Shown: one piece after another, positions 19,046-26,358 of the stretch
How the letters are laid out: the number at the start of each line of letters is the position of its first letter
How positions within the stretch are numbered: position 1 is the stretch's first letter
Assembly (NCBI RefSeq): GCF_015206895.1
Contig: NZ_JADEXU010000027.1
Span: 1 to 64,000, forward strand
From: Nostoc sp. LEGE 12450
Lineage (GTDB): Bacteria > Cyanobacteriota > Cyanobacteriia > Cyanobacteriales > Nostocaceae
Direction of reading: 5' to 3'
Length of the DNA: 64,000 bases
Position numbers and translations under genes: made by a program
Notes under the pieces: model-generated
What the model was told of the DNA's origin: nothing
The model's database searches: none
Seen by the model: only the letters and a program-made list of their open reading frames with translations

Positions 19046-19984
19046 TCAAGTTAAGGAATACCCAATTTTTCCAACTTCTAATCGAACAACATTGGCGGGA
19101 ACAACCCCTGTGGGTGGGGGTAAAAACATTCCACCATTAGTTACAACATAAATCGCGGTGCGTAGGCGTAGCCCGTCGTAGACATCGCCATCACTTTGAC
19201 CAAAAGCTATGGCTGTGCTACCAATTACACCTGACTCGGCTTGAGCAATAATAGTAGTACTGCGATCGGGTGCAATTCGTACCACACTGTTATAAATGTG
19301 CGTTGCTCCATAAAGGTTGCCTTCTACATCAAAGGCAAAGTCATCAATATTGGTCTGCTCAACAAAAATTTCTGGCTCACCTGGTTTATTAGCGTTATCA
19401 ATGGGAATCCGCAACAACAACATTTTTTCTGTGTTTGAAACGTACAGGAAATCACCAAAACGCTTCAAGCCATTTGCAGCCGGAAACACGCTCTCTGAAT
19501 TGCTACGAGCCAGCATTGGATGTTCTAGCCAAATCGATCCACTGGGTTTAGCAATATCAATTAGCCAGATTGCACCACGATAAGAATCTGCTGTTAAATA
19601 CTGAGTGTCGGAAAGTGGCGTGATGCCATTGAGAAATATCGCATCTGGCAGTGTAAGCAAGGTTTCTACTGTCCCATCATTGGAAACTAAAGAAACCACG
19701 GGAATAGAATCAGCGTTCCAGCCTGTTGCCACCAAATTACCATTAGTAGTGAAAGCAAGACCACTTACTTTGCCTTCAACAGTGGCATGAATTTGCTGAT
19801 TGCCATCTGGGGTAATGCGAACAATCTTACCAACTTCATGATTGCTTACAAAGATTGTGCCATCGATTGCGATCGCTAGATTTTCCAAAAAAGTATTAAC
19901 TGGGAACGAGGCAATAATTTTAGCAGGTGCTAATTCAATCGGCTTATCTGCGTAAATAGGCGGTAAACCTGCGGAATTTCCCAT
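19046..19984 (-). CDS. SMP-30/NHL-like beta-propeller protein
   Basis: A 312-residue protein with repeated beta-propeller motifs of the SMP-30/gluconolactonase or NHL type ([54 protein letters not shown]). No signal peptide is visible. Such proteins may be lactonases or sugar-binding proteins; the metal ligands cannot be assigned by eye. Near the C-terminus the residues [10 protein letters not shown] come from a small repeat that is also found in the Uma2 gene at 21267. Here it is read on the opposite strand and adds in-frame residues. The SDR gene lies six bases upstream, so the two are co-transcribed. Confidence 0.78.
19155..19190. repeat. 36-base repeat copy inside a coding gene
   Basis: This 36-base stretch is identical to 21267-21302: it starts GCGGTGCGTAGGCGTAGCCC and ends GACATCGCCA. 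Its core is a palindrome-like GCGTAGGCGTAGCCCG/CGTAGACATCGC. On the minus strand it is open and encodes [12 protein letters not shown]. Confidence 0.85.
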
Positions 19985-20984: not shown

Positions 20985-21611
20985 ATGACCACCAACTTAC
21001 CTGTAGCCACAGAAATTATACCAGTGGTTTTGCAATTACAACCTGCGATCGCACTAACCGAAGATCAGTTTTACGAATTTTGTCAGCTAAACCGCGACTT
21101 TCGCATTGAACGCAATGCTGCTGGAGAATTAGTGATTATGCCCCCTACTGGTTCCGAAACTGATGAACGCAACTTTAACTTAGTTGGGCAGTTGTGGGTA
21201 TGGACAAAGCAAGACGGTACAGGTGTAGGGTTTGGTTCCAGTGGTGGGTTTACTTTGCCGAATGGTGCGGTGCGTAGGCGTAGCCCGTCGTAGACATCGC
21301 CAGATGCAGCGTGGATAAAACGCGATCGCTGGGAAGCGATACCAGCCGAACTGCGAAAAAAGTTTGCGCCGATTTGTCCAGAGTTTGTGATTGAATTGCG
21401 TTCTGAGAGCGATCGCTTACAAGTTTTGCAAGACAAGATGCAAGAGTACATTGATAATGGCACACAACTTGGTTGGTTAATTGATAGAAAACAACACCAA
21501 GTTTTTATTTATCGTCCTAATACTAGTATTGAAGTTTTAAATAACCCTAAAACCCTTGATGGTGAACCTTTACTACCTGCTTTTGTTTTGGATTTAAGTC
21601 AGGTTTGGTAG
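20985..21611 (+). pseudogene. Uma2 family endonuclease-fold gene broken by a repeat
   Basis: The full frame encodes a Uma2 (DUF820) protein with the PD-(D/E)XK nuclease-like fold: ALTEDQFYEFCQLN, GELVIMPPTGSETDERN, then after the break FVIELRSESDRLQVLQDKM and IDNGTQLGWLIDRKQHQVFI. An in-frame insert of about 24 bases at codons 98-105 brings TAG at 21291-21293 between NGAVR and SPDAAW. Reading resumes in the same frame straight after it. The first 102 residues end inside the fold, so the product should be inactive unless the TAG is read through. Uma2 genes occur in very large numbers in cyanobacteria and their role is not known. Confidence 0.85.
21267..21302. repeat. 36-base repeat copy carrying an in-frame TAG
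   Basis: Identical to 19155-19190. In this orientation and frame it reads [14 protein letters not shown], which ends the Uma2 protein early. Confidence 0.85.
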
Positions 21612-21642
21612 GGAGTAAGCCAGAAGAGGAGGCGATCGTAAA

Positions 21643-21978
21643 ATGGCAAAAGTAGAACATTATCGTCAACTTATTCAAGAACTGTTGCTAGCTTACAGCG
21701 AAATCAAAGCCAGTAACGAAGAAGTCGAAGCAGAAGTTATTTTTGATAGAGAACGCGATCGCTACCAAGTTGTTCATGCGGGGTGGTCAAATAAGCGCCG
21801 TGTATATGGCTGTGTTTTGCATTTAGATATTAAAAACGAAAAAATTTGGATTCAACACGATGGTACAGAAGGAGGTATTGCCAATGAACTTATTAGTCGG
21901 GGTATACCCAAAAAAGACATCGTTTTGGCTTTTCATTCCCCCTTTAAACGACAATTTACCGAGTTCGCTGTTGGTTAA
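21643..21978 (+). CDS. xisI: XisI family protein
   Basis: A 111-residue protein matching the fdxN-element excision controlling factor XisI family: MAKVEHYRQLIQELLLAYSE, then YQVVHAGWSNKRRVYGCVLH, IWIQHDGTEGGIANEL and GIPKKDIVLAFHSPFKRQF. In Anabaena, XisI and XisH help control excision of the fdxN element during heterocyst formation, but XisI genes are also scattered in many copies away from any such element. AGGAGG lies ten bases before the ATG. No XisH gene precedes it; the upstream neighbour is the broken Uma2 gene 31 bases away, so this copy looks orphaned. Confidence 0.9.
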   Translation: MAKVEHYRQLIQELLLAYSEIKASNEEVEAEVIFDRERDRYQVVHAGWSNKRRVYGCVLHLDIKNEKIWIQHDGTEGGIANELISRGIPKKDIVLAFHSPFKRQFTEFAVG

Positions 21979-22017
21979 GGTGGCTGAAGGTTGAAAAGAA
22001 CCCAATCACTCAAATAA

Positions 22018-22173
22018 ATCGATTTTATTGCTCCTGTAGCATGGTTACAAACCAATACAGGCGGAGAACAATTGCTTTTAGGTCGAGAAGTTGTATTTAA
22101 TAAATTTAATATTGAATTTAGGCAAGCTGAGGAGCAAATTGTTTTTACATGGCATGAAGATTTTAAGTTATAA
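22018..22173 (+). pseudogene. Gene remnant, C-terminal fragment
   Basis: An open frame without a start codon, bounded by TAA at 22015, reads FIAPVAWLQTNTGGEQLLLG, then REVVFNKFNIEFRQAEEQIV and FTWHEDFKL before TAA at 22171. The composition is protein-like and resembles the tail of small cyanobacterial retropepsin-like proteins, though I cannot confirm that. It is most likely the stub of a gene deleted when the neighbouring island was rearranged. Confidence 0.4.
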
Positions 22174-22290
22174 AAAAAGGGACATATCCTGAGAAGAATC
22201 TATAATTTGCAGATGGATCTATTAGCCCAGAAGTGAACTTCTGGGCGGAATGTGGGGATTAGCTAGATTTTAGAGTTTTAGAGAAGTCAA

Positions 22291-22320
22291 GCGATGTCTA
22301 CGACGGCCACGCCTACGCAC
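22291..22320. repeat. Small repeat abutting the methyltransferase stop codon
   Basis: GCGATGTCTACGACGGCCAC then GCCTACGCAC is another copy, slightly diverged and inverted, of the repeat at 19155 and 21267. Its last base forms part of the TAG that ends the methyltransferase gene on the minus strand. Confidence 0.6.
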
Positions 22321-24356
22321 TAATTATCACTTATATCAAAATTAGTAGCATTTTTACCTAGTAACTCTAAGCACGCTCTCCTTGTTAGCTCTCGTGCTTC
22401 AATTCTTTCATGAATAGCCTGCTGCACCATTTTTGTTACTTTCTCCTGCAACAATTTGTCTTTTGGAATAGGTAATATGAGTTCATTAATCCGATCTCCT
22501 AAAGAATCAATAATGTCTTGGGTAAATCTCTTGGATTTAATCTGCTGTTGAACAGGAACAGAACTTAATGCCGCAAGCAGTAGATAAGGAGAGAGTTTAG
22601 AAGGATCAGTTACACGGAGTTTGTATAGGTGACTTTGGTAAATAATGCGAGTGTCATATTTTGTCACAAATGCACAAGTGCCAATCAGGTAAGTTCCATC
22701 TCGCACCATCAAGATGTCCCCTTCTTGAACATCTTGTTTTTTGGCATAAGTCGTATAAATTTCTTCACTAATACAATGCTTTGGATCTACTTTTATTTCC
22801 CAATTAGATATGTCAGAGGTACGAATAAAAGGTATATCTCCATTTCCGTAAGCGAGCTTACCTACTTCATCTCCTGTACTAATTTTTATTACTCCTGATA
22901 AAACTAAATCCCCAAACTTTATTAAGTGATGAGTATCCTTAAGCAGTTGCAGCGAATCATTAACTTCGGGGTTGTAATATCTAGGAGCTAGGACATTATC
23001 TACGATTTGAGTATTAGAGATGCTATACCCCAGATGAGTATACTCTTTTGGCATATTGCTTAAAAATTCATGGTATTTCCTAGCAATTTCAGGTAGTTCA
23101 TCACATCCAAGTTGTCTTCCCCTACTATCATGACCGCACCATTTGGCTTCTGCCATGAAGATTCTGATCTTGCCACCGTCTAATTCCCTATCGGACTTCT
23201 TTTGAAAAAGAACTAAGCAGGTTTTAGTGTGAGTTCCTCCCTTCCCTGAGATTTTAAAAAGAGACTCTGGCATCCCCAATACTGCTTTGATGTGTGCATA
23301 TTCTCTAATGTAATTAATAACATACCGATAGTTTTTACTGGACATAAGGCTTTCTGGAACAACCATACCGATGCGTCCATTAGCTCTTACTAGAGAGAGG
23401 CAGCGTTCAACAAAGAGTACTTGTGGTGGAACGGAGTTTTGAAGTATATCAGATTTGACAAATTTAGATGTTTTCTTATCTGTTTTCCACTTGTAACCGA
23501 GATCAAACACTTTCTGTACATTGCTGATTACCGACACAATACGAGAGCCAAAGGGAGGATTGGTTACTACACCATCAAAAGTACCGAAACTGTCTTTCAA
23601 TACGAAATTTTTCTCTCTTTCTGCTACCCAAGCAAGAGAGTCTGCACAGAAAACATTGGCGGGTGAGAGCGTAACTAGCGATAAGCGAGCTGCTGCGAGA
23701 TTAACTAGATAGCTATCTTTATCTACTCCAAAAACACTGTTGGAGACATCTTTTGGAGAAACACCAGCAGTAACGAGACTACGTGCTATGGCATTGAGAA
23801 ACCCGCCTGCTCCACAAGCTGGGTCAATGAATCTTTCCCCTGACTTGGGAGCTACAAGTGAAACCAAGAGTTCAACGGCATTCTGAGGTGTAAAAAACTG
23901 TCCCTCTTGTCCTCTGATGGTAGAACCAATAAAAATTTCGTAAGCATCTCCAAAAGGGTCACGACTCCAGTTATTGAGGTGGATTTTATCTAGTTTCTGA
24001 TCGATATACGTGATGCTTGCTGGGTCGAGCAATAATTCTTCTTCATGGCTAAAAATAGCCTGTATACCAAACAAGTTGGGTAATAAATCACGTAGCTCTG
24101 AGAATGCTTTTCTATACTGCTTGGCAACTAAAAAGGCATCGTTATTATCAAACTGCACTTGTTGTTTTATAAGATACAACTTGCAAAAAAGGCACTTAAT
24201 CACCTCTGTTAACAGTGCTTCATCACGAGTTGCTCCTACATATTGACCAGCAAGGTAGTTGCGGATTTGGCGGTAAGCTTCTTTGTAATCCAAGCCCTCA
24301 CAGGCTTCTGATGCTAGCAATGACAACTGCTCATGGTTTTGAAGCTTATTTTTCAT
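22320..24356 (-). CDS. N6-adenine DNA methyltransferase with fused specificity-like domain
   Basis: A 678-residue protein. Residues 130-430 form an HsdM-type methyltransferase: DPFGDAYEIFI and GQFFTPQNAVELL, SAM motif I DPACGAGGFL (178-187) and catalytic NPPF (266-269). From about residue 455 to the end it resembles half of a type I specificity subunit or a type IIG target-recognition domain (IKFGDLVLSG, IPFIRTSDI, VQEGDILMVRDG, DSLGDRINELILPIP and a closing helix). It should methylate adenine at its own target without a separate HsdS. There is no nuclease motif in it. It is divergent from the XRE-HNH gene pair across 355 bases. The C-terminus ends at a small repeat, so it may be shortened. 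Confidence 0.88.
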   Translation of the reverse strand: MKNKLQNHEQLSLLASEACEGLDYKEAYRQIRNYLAGQYVGATRDEALLTEVIKCLFCKLYLIKQQVQFDNNDAFLVAKQYRKAFSELRDLLPNLFGIQAIFSHEEELLLDPASITYIDQKLDKIHLNNWSRDPFGDAYEIFIGSTIRGQEGQFFTPQNAVELLVSLVAPKSGERFIDPACGAGGFLNAIARSLVTAGVSPKDVSNSVFGVDKDSYLVNLAAARLSLVTLSPANVFCADSLAWVAEREKNFVLKDSFGTFDGVVTNPPFGSRIVSVISNVQKVFDLGYKWKTDKKTSKFVKSDILQNSVPPQVLFVERCLSLVRANGRIGMVVPESLMSSKNYRYVINYIREYAHIKAVLGMPESLFKISGKGGTHTKTCLVLFQKKSDRELDGGKIRIFMAEAKWCGHDSRGRQLGCDELPEIARKYHEFLSNMPKEYTHLGYSISNTQIVDNVLAPRYYNPEVNDSLQLLKDTHHLIKFGDLVLSGVIKISTGDEVGKLAYGNGDIPFIRTSDISNWEIKVDPKHCISEEIYTTYAKKQDVQEGDILMVRDGTYLIGTCAFVTKYDTRIIYQSHLYKLRVTDPSKLSPYLLLAALSSVPVQQQIKSKRFTQDIIDSLGDRINELILPIPKDKLLQEKVTKMVQQAIHERIEARELTRRACLELLGKNATNFDISDN

Positions 24357-24711
24357 TTTCTGTGGTAAAGCTTTTGATTTTCATATTCTGATTGAATTAA
24401 ATAATAAAACAGATGCTGTTGTTAAACAAGTCTTCATAAAAAATTACTGCTTATGTTAGTTGGAGCCTGGAAAGGCGTAAATACGTCAATATAGCTAAAC
24501 ATCTTGGCTAAACCATAGCTTGAAACCCTTGCTATCGCTTGAGCATTTTTAATTCACATAAGGCGTAAATTTGTATTTTTAAGTCATAACCCCACTCGAA
24601 TTTACTGGCTCTGAAACGAGTGGAGATAAGTCTGATAGTAAGACCGTTAAAAAGTCGATTTTGGACTATTTATAATCAGACTTTAAGATGTAAGGCAATG
24701 TATTTCAAAAC
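24357..24711. promoter_or_regulatory. Divergent control region of the methyltransferase and XRE-nuclease genes
   Basis: The 355-base gap must hold both promoters. A TATAAT sits at 24671-24676, 36 bases before the XRE gene. AAGTCTGAT (24628-24636) and ATCAGACTT (24675-24683) form a 9-base inverted pair, the right arm overlapping the end of that TATAAT. A second pair, CCACTCG (24592-24598) and CGAGTGG (24617-24623), lies just upstream. These are good candidates for operator half-sites of the XRE protein, but binding is inferred. Confidence 0.5.
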
Positions 24712-24957
24712 ATGCCAAAGTCTTTGTTTTCCAAGGATTACGCGGTTTTTCTAGAAGTTCTCATAGAAACCAGGAAAAAAGCTAGTTTGACGCAAGAACA
24801 ACTTGCCGAATGCCTTGCTACAACTCAATCGATCATTAGTAAGTGTGAACGTGGTGAAAGAAGATTGGATATTGTTGAATTGCGTCGGTGGTGCAATGCG
24901 ATTGACATCGGATTGCTCAATTTCATTGCCGACTTCGAGGAGCGTTTGAGCGAATAA
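24712..24957 (+). CDS. XRE family regulator (controller-like)
   Basis: An 81-residue protein that is almost entirely a lambda-repressor-like helix-turn-helix (about 15-75): LIETRKKASLTQEQLAECLA and TTQSIISKCERGERRLDIVE. Size and position match the controller (C) proteins of some type II restriction-modification systems, which bind near their own promoter and time nuclease expression. Only two bases separate its TAA from the ATG of the HNH protein gene, so the two are co-translated. It could also be a plain autorepressor. Confidence 0.85.
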   Translation: MPKSLFSKDYAVFLEVLIETRKKASLTQEQLAECLATTQSIISKCERGERRLDIVELRRWCNAIDIGLLNFIADFEERLSE

Positions 24958-24959
24958 AC

Positions 24960-26051
24960 ATGCATCCCCTTCAAGCGTCTATTGAGCAGGCTTCTAATGC
25001 AGAGCGTTTCAATATGATCAATCTGTATCAGGCTGCATTGCCATTTCTCAACAGTGATTCAAGAATATCACAGCTTATCATACCTATCACTGCACAACTG
25101 GGCACCGAGAAATATCTCCGCTTAGTCAGTGGCGCAATTTTACGACATGTTTTCCTCATTGAACTTGTCAAGGTTCCAAAAATAGATTCGACTAAATTCC
25201 GAACACGGTGGTTCGAGCAACTAAATGGCGATCAACGGTATTGCTCTTTTGATGAATGTCTTGAAATTGCCATAGACCTTATTTCAAAACTAGATCAGTG
25301 GTTACAAACGCCAGAACATAGAGAAACCCTGGAACTGTTTTTCAAATACCCGCAACTTCCCTACGAAGCACCTATCGACTATCTCGCTAAACCTGATATA
25401 TCTGACAAAACTACAAGGATACATCGACTTGGTAATGTTGCTTGGACATACACAGAGACAATTCTACGCACGTTAAAGCTACGAAAATTTCTGACTCAAG
25501 GCGAAACCAGCCCGGATGCAAAATTTTTCAAATTGCTTCTGAGGGATAAGATCATAGTTAAAGCTTATCTGACTGACCGTGCTTTAACCGGGAATTTTAA
25601 AACTAACAGAGAAAAGCGATGGGAAACACATCCGCACTCAGTTCAATTTGCTAATCGTCGAACTTGCATGGAAATTGAGTATGTTTTAATTGAACAGCTT
25701 TGCACTTTTGATGGTTTTCCAGCCACATCAAGGCAAGCACTTGAAAAAGAGAAAGTTCTCTTTAATACAGAGACAGTATTTCAGTGCCCGATCACACTCA
25801 TTCCTATGTCCTTTGATCAATTCGAGGCAGAGCTAACAACCCGAACGCACGGCAAATCAAGCTTCCAAGTTGGTCATCTTAACCCGTTGAAACTCGACGA
25901 TCCTGCAAGCGCTACATCTGGACATACCGCTGACAACATAAGCTGGATTTCAGACGACGGGAACCGCATTCAAGGAAGCAAAAGTCTGGACAGCATCCGA
26001 AAGCTGCTTAAGCAAATCGCAGATAACTATCAAAAACTTAAACTTCATTAG
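24960..26051 (+). CDS. Candidate HNH-type restriction endonuclease
   Basis: A 363-residue protein. The C-terminal 90 residues look like a beta-beta-alpha-metal (HNH) nuclease: FQCPITLIPM with Cys276, VGHLNPLKL with His306 as the likely general base, then TADNISWISDDGNRIQGSKS with Asn326 and Asn335. That is the order HNH nucleases use. The first 270 residues are mostly helical and match nothing I know; they could recognise DNA. The position behind an XRE regulator and opposite an adenine methyltransferase makes a restriction enzyme the best guess. It lacks the usual zinc-binding Cys pairs, so it belongs to a simple HNH class or has lost them. Function is inferred from motif and context. Confidence 0.62.
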   Translation: MHPLQASIEQASNAERFNMINLYQAALPFLNSDSRISQLIIPITAQLGTEKYLRLVSGAILRHVFLIELVKVPKIDSTKFRTRWFEQLNGDQRYCSFDECLEIAIDLISKLDQWLQTPEHRETLELFFKYPQLPYEAPIDYLAKPDISDKTTRIHRLGNVAWTYTETILRTLKLRKFLTQGETSPDAKFFKLLLRDKIIVKAYLTDRALTGNFKTNREKRWETHPHSVQFANRRTCMEIEYVLIEQLCTFDGFPATSRQALEKEKVLFNTETVFQCPITLIPMSFDQFEAELTTRTHGKSSFQVGHLNPLKLDDPASATSGHTADNISWISDDGNRIQGSKSLDSIRKLLKQIADNYQKLKLH

Positions 26052-26135
26052 CTAAAAATTAGCTTAGTGCCAAAATACATTTATTGCTAGATGAGTGCCG
26101 TTAAGCATTTGCAACTCATGCTATTGTAAAAACAT

Positions 26136-26163
26136 AACCCCTCTCCGCCACCGGAAAGGGGTT
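26136..26163 (+). terminator. Hairpin terminator after the HNH gene
   Basis: AACCCCTCTCCG and CGGAAAGGGGTT pair with one mismatch across a 4-base loop, followed by AATTTAG. It lies 85 bases after the stop codon. Confidence 0.6.
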
Positions 26164-26358
26164 AATTTAGTACGTATATACTTACACTTGCAACATATAT
26201 TTGTACCCTAGTAACAATCCTGAATGGTTGCTTCGACATAAAGCAGAACTTCTTAAGTTAATTAAAAATAAGCTTGGTTGTCATGCTGACTACATCAATG
26301 TTACTACGATGAAATAAAATTACTAATTTTAAATTAGTATTGACTAGACTCATTAAAA

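Follow-up and report, generated by a model that had tools for sequence, protein, structure and literature searches.

A DraIII-related HNH protein and its methyltransferase partner in Nostoc sp. LEGE 12450: a probable mobile Type II restriction-modification system

In the first 64,000 nucleotides of contig NZ_JADEXU010000027.1 of Nostoc sp. LEGE 12450 (hereafter the window, meaning the whole stretch that was analysed), a gene for an adenine methyltransferase fused to a specificity domain lies divergent from a gene pair encoding a small XRE-type protein and a 363 amino acid (aa) protein. The question raised by this locus is whether the three genes belong together as a restriction-modification system and, if so, of which kind. 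The analysis presented here leads us to conclude that they very probably constitute a Type II restriction-modification system akin to that of DraIII, mobile and under the regulation of a controller. Its putative restriction endonuclease, the 363-residue protein, is a distant relative of DraIII. Throughout the text G labels denote genomes, G000 being that of the window, and L labels denote loci. The features on which the argument depends are as follows, in window coordinates.

22320..24356, minus strand: M~S protein of 678 aa, a gamma-class adenine methyltransferase with one target recognition domain (TRD) (family searches; alignment with 11 homologues)
23796..23825, minus strand: motif I, DPACGAGGFL, S-adenosylmethionine binding, residues 178-187 (sequence; conserved in the homologue alignment)
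23550..23561, minus strand: motif IV, NPPF, catalytic, residues 266-269 (sequence; conserved in the homologue alignment)
22422..22949, minus strand: TRD, residues 470-645 (identity comparison; PADLOC Specificity_I matches)
24712..24957, plus strand: XRE controller-like protein of 81 aa (HTH_3, PADLOC and PDB matches)
24960..26051, plus strand: putative restriction endonuclease, a DraIII-related HNH protein of 363 aa (hhalign; Foldseek)
25176..25451, plus strand: nuclease residues 73-164, probable degenerate N-terminal module copy (comparisons between halves; alignment invariants)
25545..26048, plus strand: nuclease residues 196-363, catalytic copy corresponding to DraIII (the alignment covers ~231-357; 196-230 assigned by eye)
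25863..25970, plus strand: HNH core of strand, strand and helix, residues 302-337, with H306, H322, N326 and N335 (AlphaFold2 elements; alignment with DraIII H183 and N202)

A sequence-only reading of this DNA had described the three genes, the two methyltransferase motifs and an XRE-nuclease junction of two bases, and all of these were found in the open reading frames (ORFs), that of the nuclease beginning two bases past the XRE stop codon.

The identity of the 363-residue protein is central to the question. It had no match in Pfam, NCBIfam or PADLOC at E values up to 1 and nothing meaningful among PDB sequences (best E 1.4), and no description of this nuclease family was found among the titles and abstracts that searches of one open-access literature collection listed. 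DraIII is described as an HNH Type IIP enzyme with the target CACNNNGTG and with H183 and N202 as catalytic residues; its zinc ligands are C157, C160, H198 and C201, with a second zinc site formed by C4, C22, H28 and C32 (PMC3996161). When the alignment of the window family was compared with a DraIII homologue from Phaeobacter using hhalign, residues ~231-357 were matched with a probability of 95.2 and an E value of 2.8e-8, while comparison with a two-sequence DraIII alignment gave E 8.9e-8 (each value referring to a single comparison). In this alignment H306 pairs with H183, N335 with N202 and C276 with C157. One of the six relatives searched (L012) matched the Pfam DraIII model PF21586 below its curated cut-off (E 0.0011, 19.4 of 27 bits). 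A full-length AlphaFold2 model built from nine sequences (predicted local distance difference test score 80.6, predicted template modelling score 0.83) places strands at residues 302-306 and 327-331 and a helix at 332-337, and its top three Foldseek matches were chains of the DraIII structure 4L0K (probability 1.00, E 1.4e-3 to 4.0e-3), all others having a probability of 0.16 or less. In line with the HNH-like order of residues noted from the sequence alone, the structure prediction shows a strand-strand-helix unit at 302-337, and its best structural match is an HNH restriction enzyme.

The residues Cys276, His306, Asn326 and Asn335, which had been read as an HNH-like order, stand at the positions claimed and are all invariant in a nine-row family alignment (three rows of which are ~93% identical to each other), so that their arrangement is not due to chance. 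Three of the four zinc ligands of the HNH site are replaced, T279, S331 and G334 taking the place of C160, H198 and C201 and only C276 being kept, and no counterpart of the N-terminal zinc site of DraIII was seen in the window protein. The family-wide loss of three ligands, along with the splitting of the nuclease into two frames at L017 (apparently G102), might indicate that the nuclease is degenerate and that only the methyltransferase is maintained; this we consider highly improbable, as H306, N326 and N335 are invariant in nine of nine intact rows, while the zinc-ligand loss is shared by all nine rows, and at two of its three positions the substituted residue (T279, G334) does not vary.

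The 363-residue protein is longer than DraIII, and its N-terminal 270 residues had been described as unknown. They do indeed lack a library match; nevertheless, residues ~231-357 align with DraIII and residues ~73-164 resemble a degenerate copy of the same module. Comparison of the two halves revealed collinear similarity (73-86 with 210-223, 90-112 with 226-248 and 148-164 with 315-331), as exemplified by L013, where QIHRADNISF in the first half corresponds to AGHTADNISW in the second. Using seven of the nine rows, the two near copies of the window protein being left out, local profile alignment of 78-111 with 215-247 scored 27.0, whereas 100 column shuffles averaged 14.1 and reached at most 20.4, and the best gapless block of 12 columns (155-166 with 322-333) scored 24.9, compared with a maximum of 21.6 in 100 shuffles. 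The predicted elements run helix-helix-strand-strand-helix in both halves, the second having one extra helix. Within the first copy Y141, H155 and N159 are invariant in the family alignment, eight of nine rows carry (I/V)DY close to where the catalytic G-H would stand, and no Asn is present at the place equivalent to N335. On these sequence comparisons, we consider it likely that the N-terminal half is a degenerate second copy of the module that arose by duplication.

Homologues of the 363-residue protein that never adjoined a methyltransferase would have counted against the sequence-only reading; this outcome was not observed. The nuclease is rare, two of the 292 genomes sampled from the phylum and one of 23 near relatives carrying it (the window's own genome included in both). 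A scan covering one genome per species (84,980 species), limited to stretches matching one of two short patterns, gave 51 pattern matches, from which ten nuclease relatives were obtained, namely in Nostoc, Komarekiella, an uncultured bacterium, Larkinella and metagenome-assembled genomes (MAGs) of Azoarcus, Bacteroidetes, Oscillospiraceae, Ruminococcaceae, Acinetobacter and Planctomycetota. The closest homologues, from Nostoc sp. B(2019) and Komarekiella, are 93% identical. An M~S gene lies beside the nuclease gene, or is separated from it by the XRE gene only, in all ten (one methyltransferase and one nuclease being cut by contig ends, at L013 and L018), and the gene order varies from divergent to convergent to tandem. 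On two Acinetobacter plasmids the genes for XRE, a nuclease homologue of 386 aa (under a single accession for both plasmids) and a methyltransferase follow one another in tandem, the same gene set as in the Acinetobacter MAG; homologues of the nuclease are found adjoining a methyltransferase in ten of ten genomic relatives and two of two plasmid records. A further link to DraIII is provided by a Phaeobacter plasmid. A homologue of the M~S protein (37% identical over 81%) there faces, in convergent orientation, a controller-like gene and the gene for a 231-aa member of the DraIII family (PF21586, E 9e-77; PDB 4L0K, E 2.5e-66). A phage or viral origin was considered and rejected, since phage records gave no nuclease match, viral contigs gave one pattern match without a relative and none with a DraIII query, and the best viral structure match had an E value of 0.16.

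The 81-aa protein matches Pfam HTH_3 (E 7e-7), and in PADLOC its best match is HTH_VI (E 4.2e-8), followed by a control protein (E 2.1e-7). Among PDB sequences C.BclI is the fourth of seven matches (E 1.4e-6) and C.AhdI a weak one (E 0.0045). As a small XRE ORF situated directly upstream of the nuclease gene it occupies the position of a controller (C) protein gene. The two-base spacing and the best NCBIfam match, a HipB-type antitoxin model on which it scored 30.3 bits, far short of the 71.65-bit cut-off, could alternatively suggest that the XRE and HNH genes are a toxin-antitoxin pair with the methyltransferase as an unrelated neighbour, an explanation to which we attach very little weight because the constant partner of the nuclease is the methyltransferase, because, among the seven lineages whose upstream DNA was covered, only the window's group and Acinetobacter have XRE directly upstream (ORFs of at least 55 aa, scored by eye, with the Oscillospiraceae and Ruminococcaceae loci counted as one lineage), and because the nuclease is related to DraIII. 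Upstream of the XRE gene lies one further feature.

24630..24683, plus strand: candidate operator/promoter block, weakly supported (kept in the window, L009 and L010)

This block contains the dyads GTCT-N7-AGAC (24630-24644) and AGTC-N7-GACT (24653-24667) beside a -10-like TATAAT. It is kept at all three loci, unlike the central part of the intergenic region; AGTC-N7-GACT taken alone is near chance, with 0.55 expected per window, and a promoter scan found 3 against 1.9 expected, TATAAT itself not being kept in L009 and L010. We therefore put the block forward only as a weak candidate for an operator/promoter.

The methyltransferase matches Pfam N6_Mtase (E 3.4e-34) and its C-terminal part matches type I specificity models (PADLOC Specificity_I, E 2.5e-14, residues 503-644), in agreement with the earlier description of a methyltransferase fused to a specificity domain; a single TRD is present. 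Since NCBIfam MAD2 (E 5e-64, 216.6 of 720 bits) and MAD5 (E 1e-13, 50.5 of 400 bits) both match parts of the protein, it might instead be a type I or MADS-type component with its other subunits encoded elsewhere and the HNH protein as an accessory. We consider this interpretation very improbable: both matches fall far below the curated cut-offs, and no HsdR or other MADS gene was seen among the ORFs of the ten loci, inspected by eye and without a family search. As regards type I features, one TRD is fused to M instead of the two-TRD S subunit, and no HsdR-like ORF was seen by eye adjoining the gene. The TRD (470-645) is the most conserved part of the protein: in eight carriers (L011-L018) it is 58-70% identical to its counterpart in the window, compared with 45-53% for the catalytic part. 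Recognition domains usually diversify faster. Because the TRD here outconserves the catalytic part, contrary to that tendency, the sequence comparison suggests that the carriers share one target.

A gene for a recognition domain only, 60% identical over residues 468-660, was observed among insertion sequences on a Pseudomonas amygdali plasmid (L007, 5947-6630) and is perhaps a relic of the same methyltransferase family. A short repeat at the end of the methyltransferase gene (22296-22318) appears by eye to recur near 19155-19189 and 21270-21308 with small length changes; an ungapped pattern search allowing up to two mismatches recovered one copy only.

Could the target be that of DraIII? A control is provided by G297, a genome of the same genus, which holds the best methyltransferase match outside the window among 23 genomes, the window's own included (E 2.7e-91). 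There a controller-like gene and a DraIII gene (family E 3e-79), the product of the latter being 66% identical to the Phaeobacter protein, lie beside M~S. G297 contains 99 CACNNNGTG sites against 692 for a reversed-pattern control, a ratio of 0.14, compared with ratios of 0.50-0.81 in the other 13 genomes of the genus (G000 included). Because CACNNNGTG is depleted there, the three-part set with an ordinary DraIII seems to be active in this close relative. The DraIII family was found in none of the 244 genomes of a phylum sample. Separately, G008, of the same order, was observed to be depleted of CACNNNGTG (37 sites against 374 for the control) with no DraIII family match, possibly owing to another enzyme with the same or an overlapping site, or to a past one.

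That the window system is an isoschizomer of DraIII with a diverged nuclease is suggested by its TRD, 41% identical to that of the DraIII-linked Phaeobacter methyltransferase, and by the modelled DraIII-like fold of the nuclease. Against this, no depletion of CACNNNGTG was detected in G000 or in ten carrier genomes (forward/control 0.69-1.38; one of the ten, G314, has a split nuclease), in contrast to the ratio in G297. On account of this missing depletion the target of the cassette is probably not CACNNNGTG and an isoschizomer is unlikely, although recent acquisition could also account for the result.

Site counts were also used to look for the target itself, the loci alone being too small a sample. 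Across 444 kb sampled from G000, made up of the window and 380 kb of stretches, avoidance was strongest for the gapped sites GCTNAGC, GGTNACC, GACNNNGTC, CCTNAGG and GACN6GTC. None was retained as a candidate: GACNNNGTC is low in all six close genomes counted, whether they have the system (G000, G306, G307) or not (G292, G297, G298), GACN6GTC does not separate carriers from others, and 200 kb of G298, a non-carrier, likewise had few GGTNACC, GCTNAGC and CCTNAGG sites. In the stretches of eight carriers (the ninth, L009, offering only 7 kb) no gapped 3+3 palindrome fell below 0.75 of expectation in all; the nearest, CCTNAGG (low in seven of eight) and CCCNGGG (low in five of the seven with enough expected sites), were discarded as both are low in G298 too. 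It may be noted as a general observation that many palindromes, including several gapped ones (GGTNACC, GCTNAGC, GACNNNGTC and CCTNAGG), are nearly missing in the sampled G000, and that those four are low in the 200 kb of G298.

The mobility of the system is suggested by its chromosomal setting.

21614..26354, no strand: variable chromosomal slot containing the cassette (flanks match G298 and G292, the inside does not)

The window matches G298 and G292 up to ~21614 and again from ~26354, and the DNA between differs. In G298 the slot (L129, 5211-7659) holds the PADLOC candidate defence genes PDC-M09A (E 7e-107) and PDC-M09B (E 3e-202), and that of G292 gave a GIY-YIG match below cut-off. Apart from the central part of the intergenic region, the cassette (22.2/22.3 to 26.1/26.2 kb) is 92% identical to L009 and L010, where its neighbours differ from those in the window. 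Given conserved flanks, differing slot content, differing neighbours in L009 and L010 and candidate defence genes in the slot of G298, the cassette looks like a mobile defence unit in a defence slot. Other features observed here are an XisI-family gene at 21643-21978 and, beside the cassette, a Uma2-family gene (PF05685, 20985-21611) split into two ORFs; the slot is perhaps a small defence hotspot.

Building on the homology, the gene linkage, the conserved catalytic positions and, at the level of sequence, the probable duplication described above, we infer the following scheme for the activity, stoichiometry, timing and target of the system. Two copies of the M~S protein would engage an interrupted palindrome, one at each half, and methylate an adenine on either strand, while the HNH protein would cleave the unmethylated site, the roles of general base and metal ligand falling to H306 and N335, at the positions of DraIII H183 and N202. 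The XRE protein, encoded upstream in the nuclease operon, would delay nuclease expression after entry into a new cell, and the degenerate N-terminal half likely serves DNA binding or dimer-like symmetry. A more specific proposal, which we advance tentatively and with considerable doubt, is that tandem duplication of a DraIII-like module produced a single-chain, pseudo-twofold HNH enzyme that contains no structural zinc. Its N-terminal copy, having lost the active site, would read one half-site and its C-terminal copy would read and cut the other, the enzyme acting as a monomer through sequential strand cuts on a target constant in several phyla.

Several results weigh against a controller-regulated system of the DraIII kind, or against the duplication within it. 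The window protein has no match to PF21586, nor does any protein of its genome, and the profile search of PDB sequences missed DraIII; the best Foldseek E value is only 1.4e-3, with TM scores of 0.26/0.41; in five of the seven lineages for which upstream DNA was covered, no XRE gene directly precedes that of the nuclease; and the DraIII site is undepleted in the carriers, as described above. Between the halves, hhalign with all nine rows gave a weak match (E 0.0076, equalled by one of 200 shuffles), the N-terminal half matched the DraIII profile weakly (E 0.016) and, modelled alone, it matched neither DraIII nor anything credible in the PDB, a null result which is unsupportive of the duplication but does not disprove it. 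The sequence-only reading had envisaged a controlled, Type II-like layout in which a methyltransferase of type I character is combined with an HNH nuclease, and this nonetheless finds support in the gene linkage, the controller matches and the relation to DraIII.

By connecting to DraIII a nuclease family that searches of Pfam, NCBIfam and PADLOC with the window protein miss, the present study makes it possible to annotate its carriers as probable Type II restriction-modification systems. If the duplication is true, the protein would represent a natural intermediate between a homodimeric and a single-chain HNH restriction enzyme and would show a route by which a zinc-stabilised active site loses its zinc. 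The conservation of the TRD across several phyla suggests one specificity, and the result for G297 suggests that, in these genomes, an active restriction specificity can be recognised from the depletion of its site.

How, finally, does the system compare with those already known? The sequence-only reading knew of no named system with this set of genes, a view that does not hold: DraIII, an HNH Type IIP enzyme, already bears a name, and homologues of it occur with a controller-like gene and M~S in G297 and on the Phaeobacter plasmid. The window protein has the same HNH histidine and asparagine positions as DraIII (PDB 4L0K, PF21586), the common core being H..DN.......(C/G)N..QG, and it shares with the Phaeobacter and G297 homologues an M~S partner of the same family and a controller-like gene upstream of the nuclease. 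It differs from DraIII and these two homologues, which are single-copy proteins of 227-239 aa (DraIII having two zinc sites), in its 363 aa with an extra, probably duplicated half, and its target probably differs from that of DraIII. AhdI also combines a type I-like methyltransferase with a Type II system, and C.AhdI is the weak PDB match of the XRE protein mentioned above. The AhdI nuclease is not known to be an HNH enzyme. Fused gamma-class M~S methyltransferases of Type II systems have been described as a class, in an account that lists as Type II partners the dimeric M.XmnI, M.DrdI and M.XcmI, the 'Type 1 1/2' AhdI (2M+2S) and BstXI (PMC3874165). As DraIII-type sets and M~S Type II partners of this sort exist, the combination seen in the window is of a known kind. 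In methyltransferase architecture, as described in that account, the M~S protein of the window resembles M.XmnI, M.DrdI and M.XcmI in being a single chain that joins a catalytic part to one TRD and would be expected to work on an interrupted palindrome as a dimer, and is unlike AhdI, which has separate M and S subunits (PMC3874165). BstXI similarly pairs a Type II nuclease with a type I-like methyltransferase but has a separate M and an S with two TRDs (PMC4335341). As far as Pfam, NCBIfam, PADLOC and the literature collection consulted show, the nuclease is an unnamed branch of this known kind; new here are the loss of three of the four HNH zinc ligands and, judging from its sequence, an N-terminal half that resembles a degenerate copy of the catalytic module.

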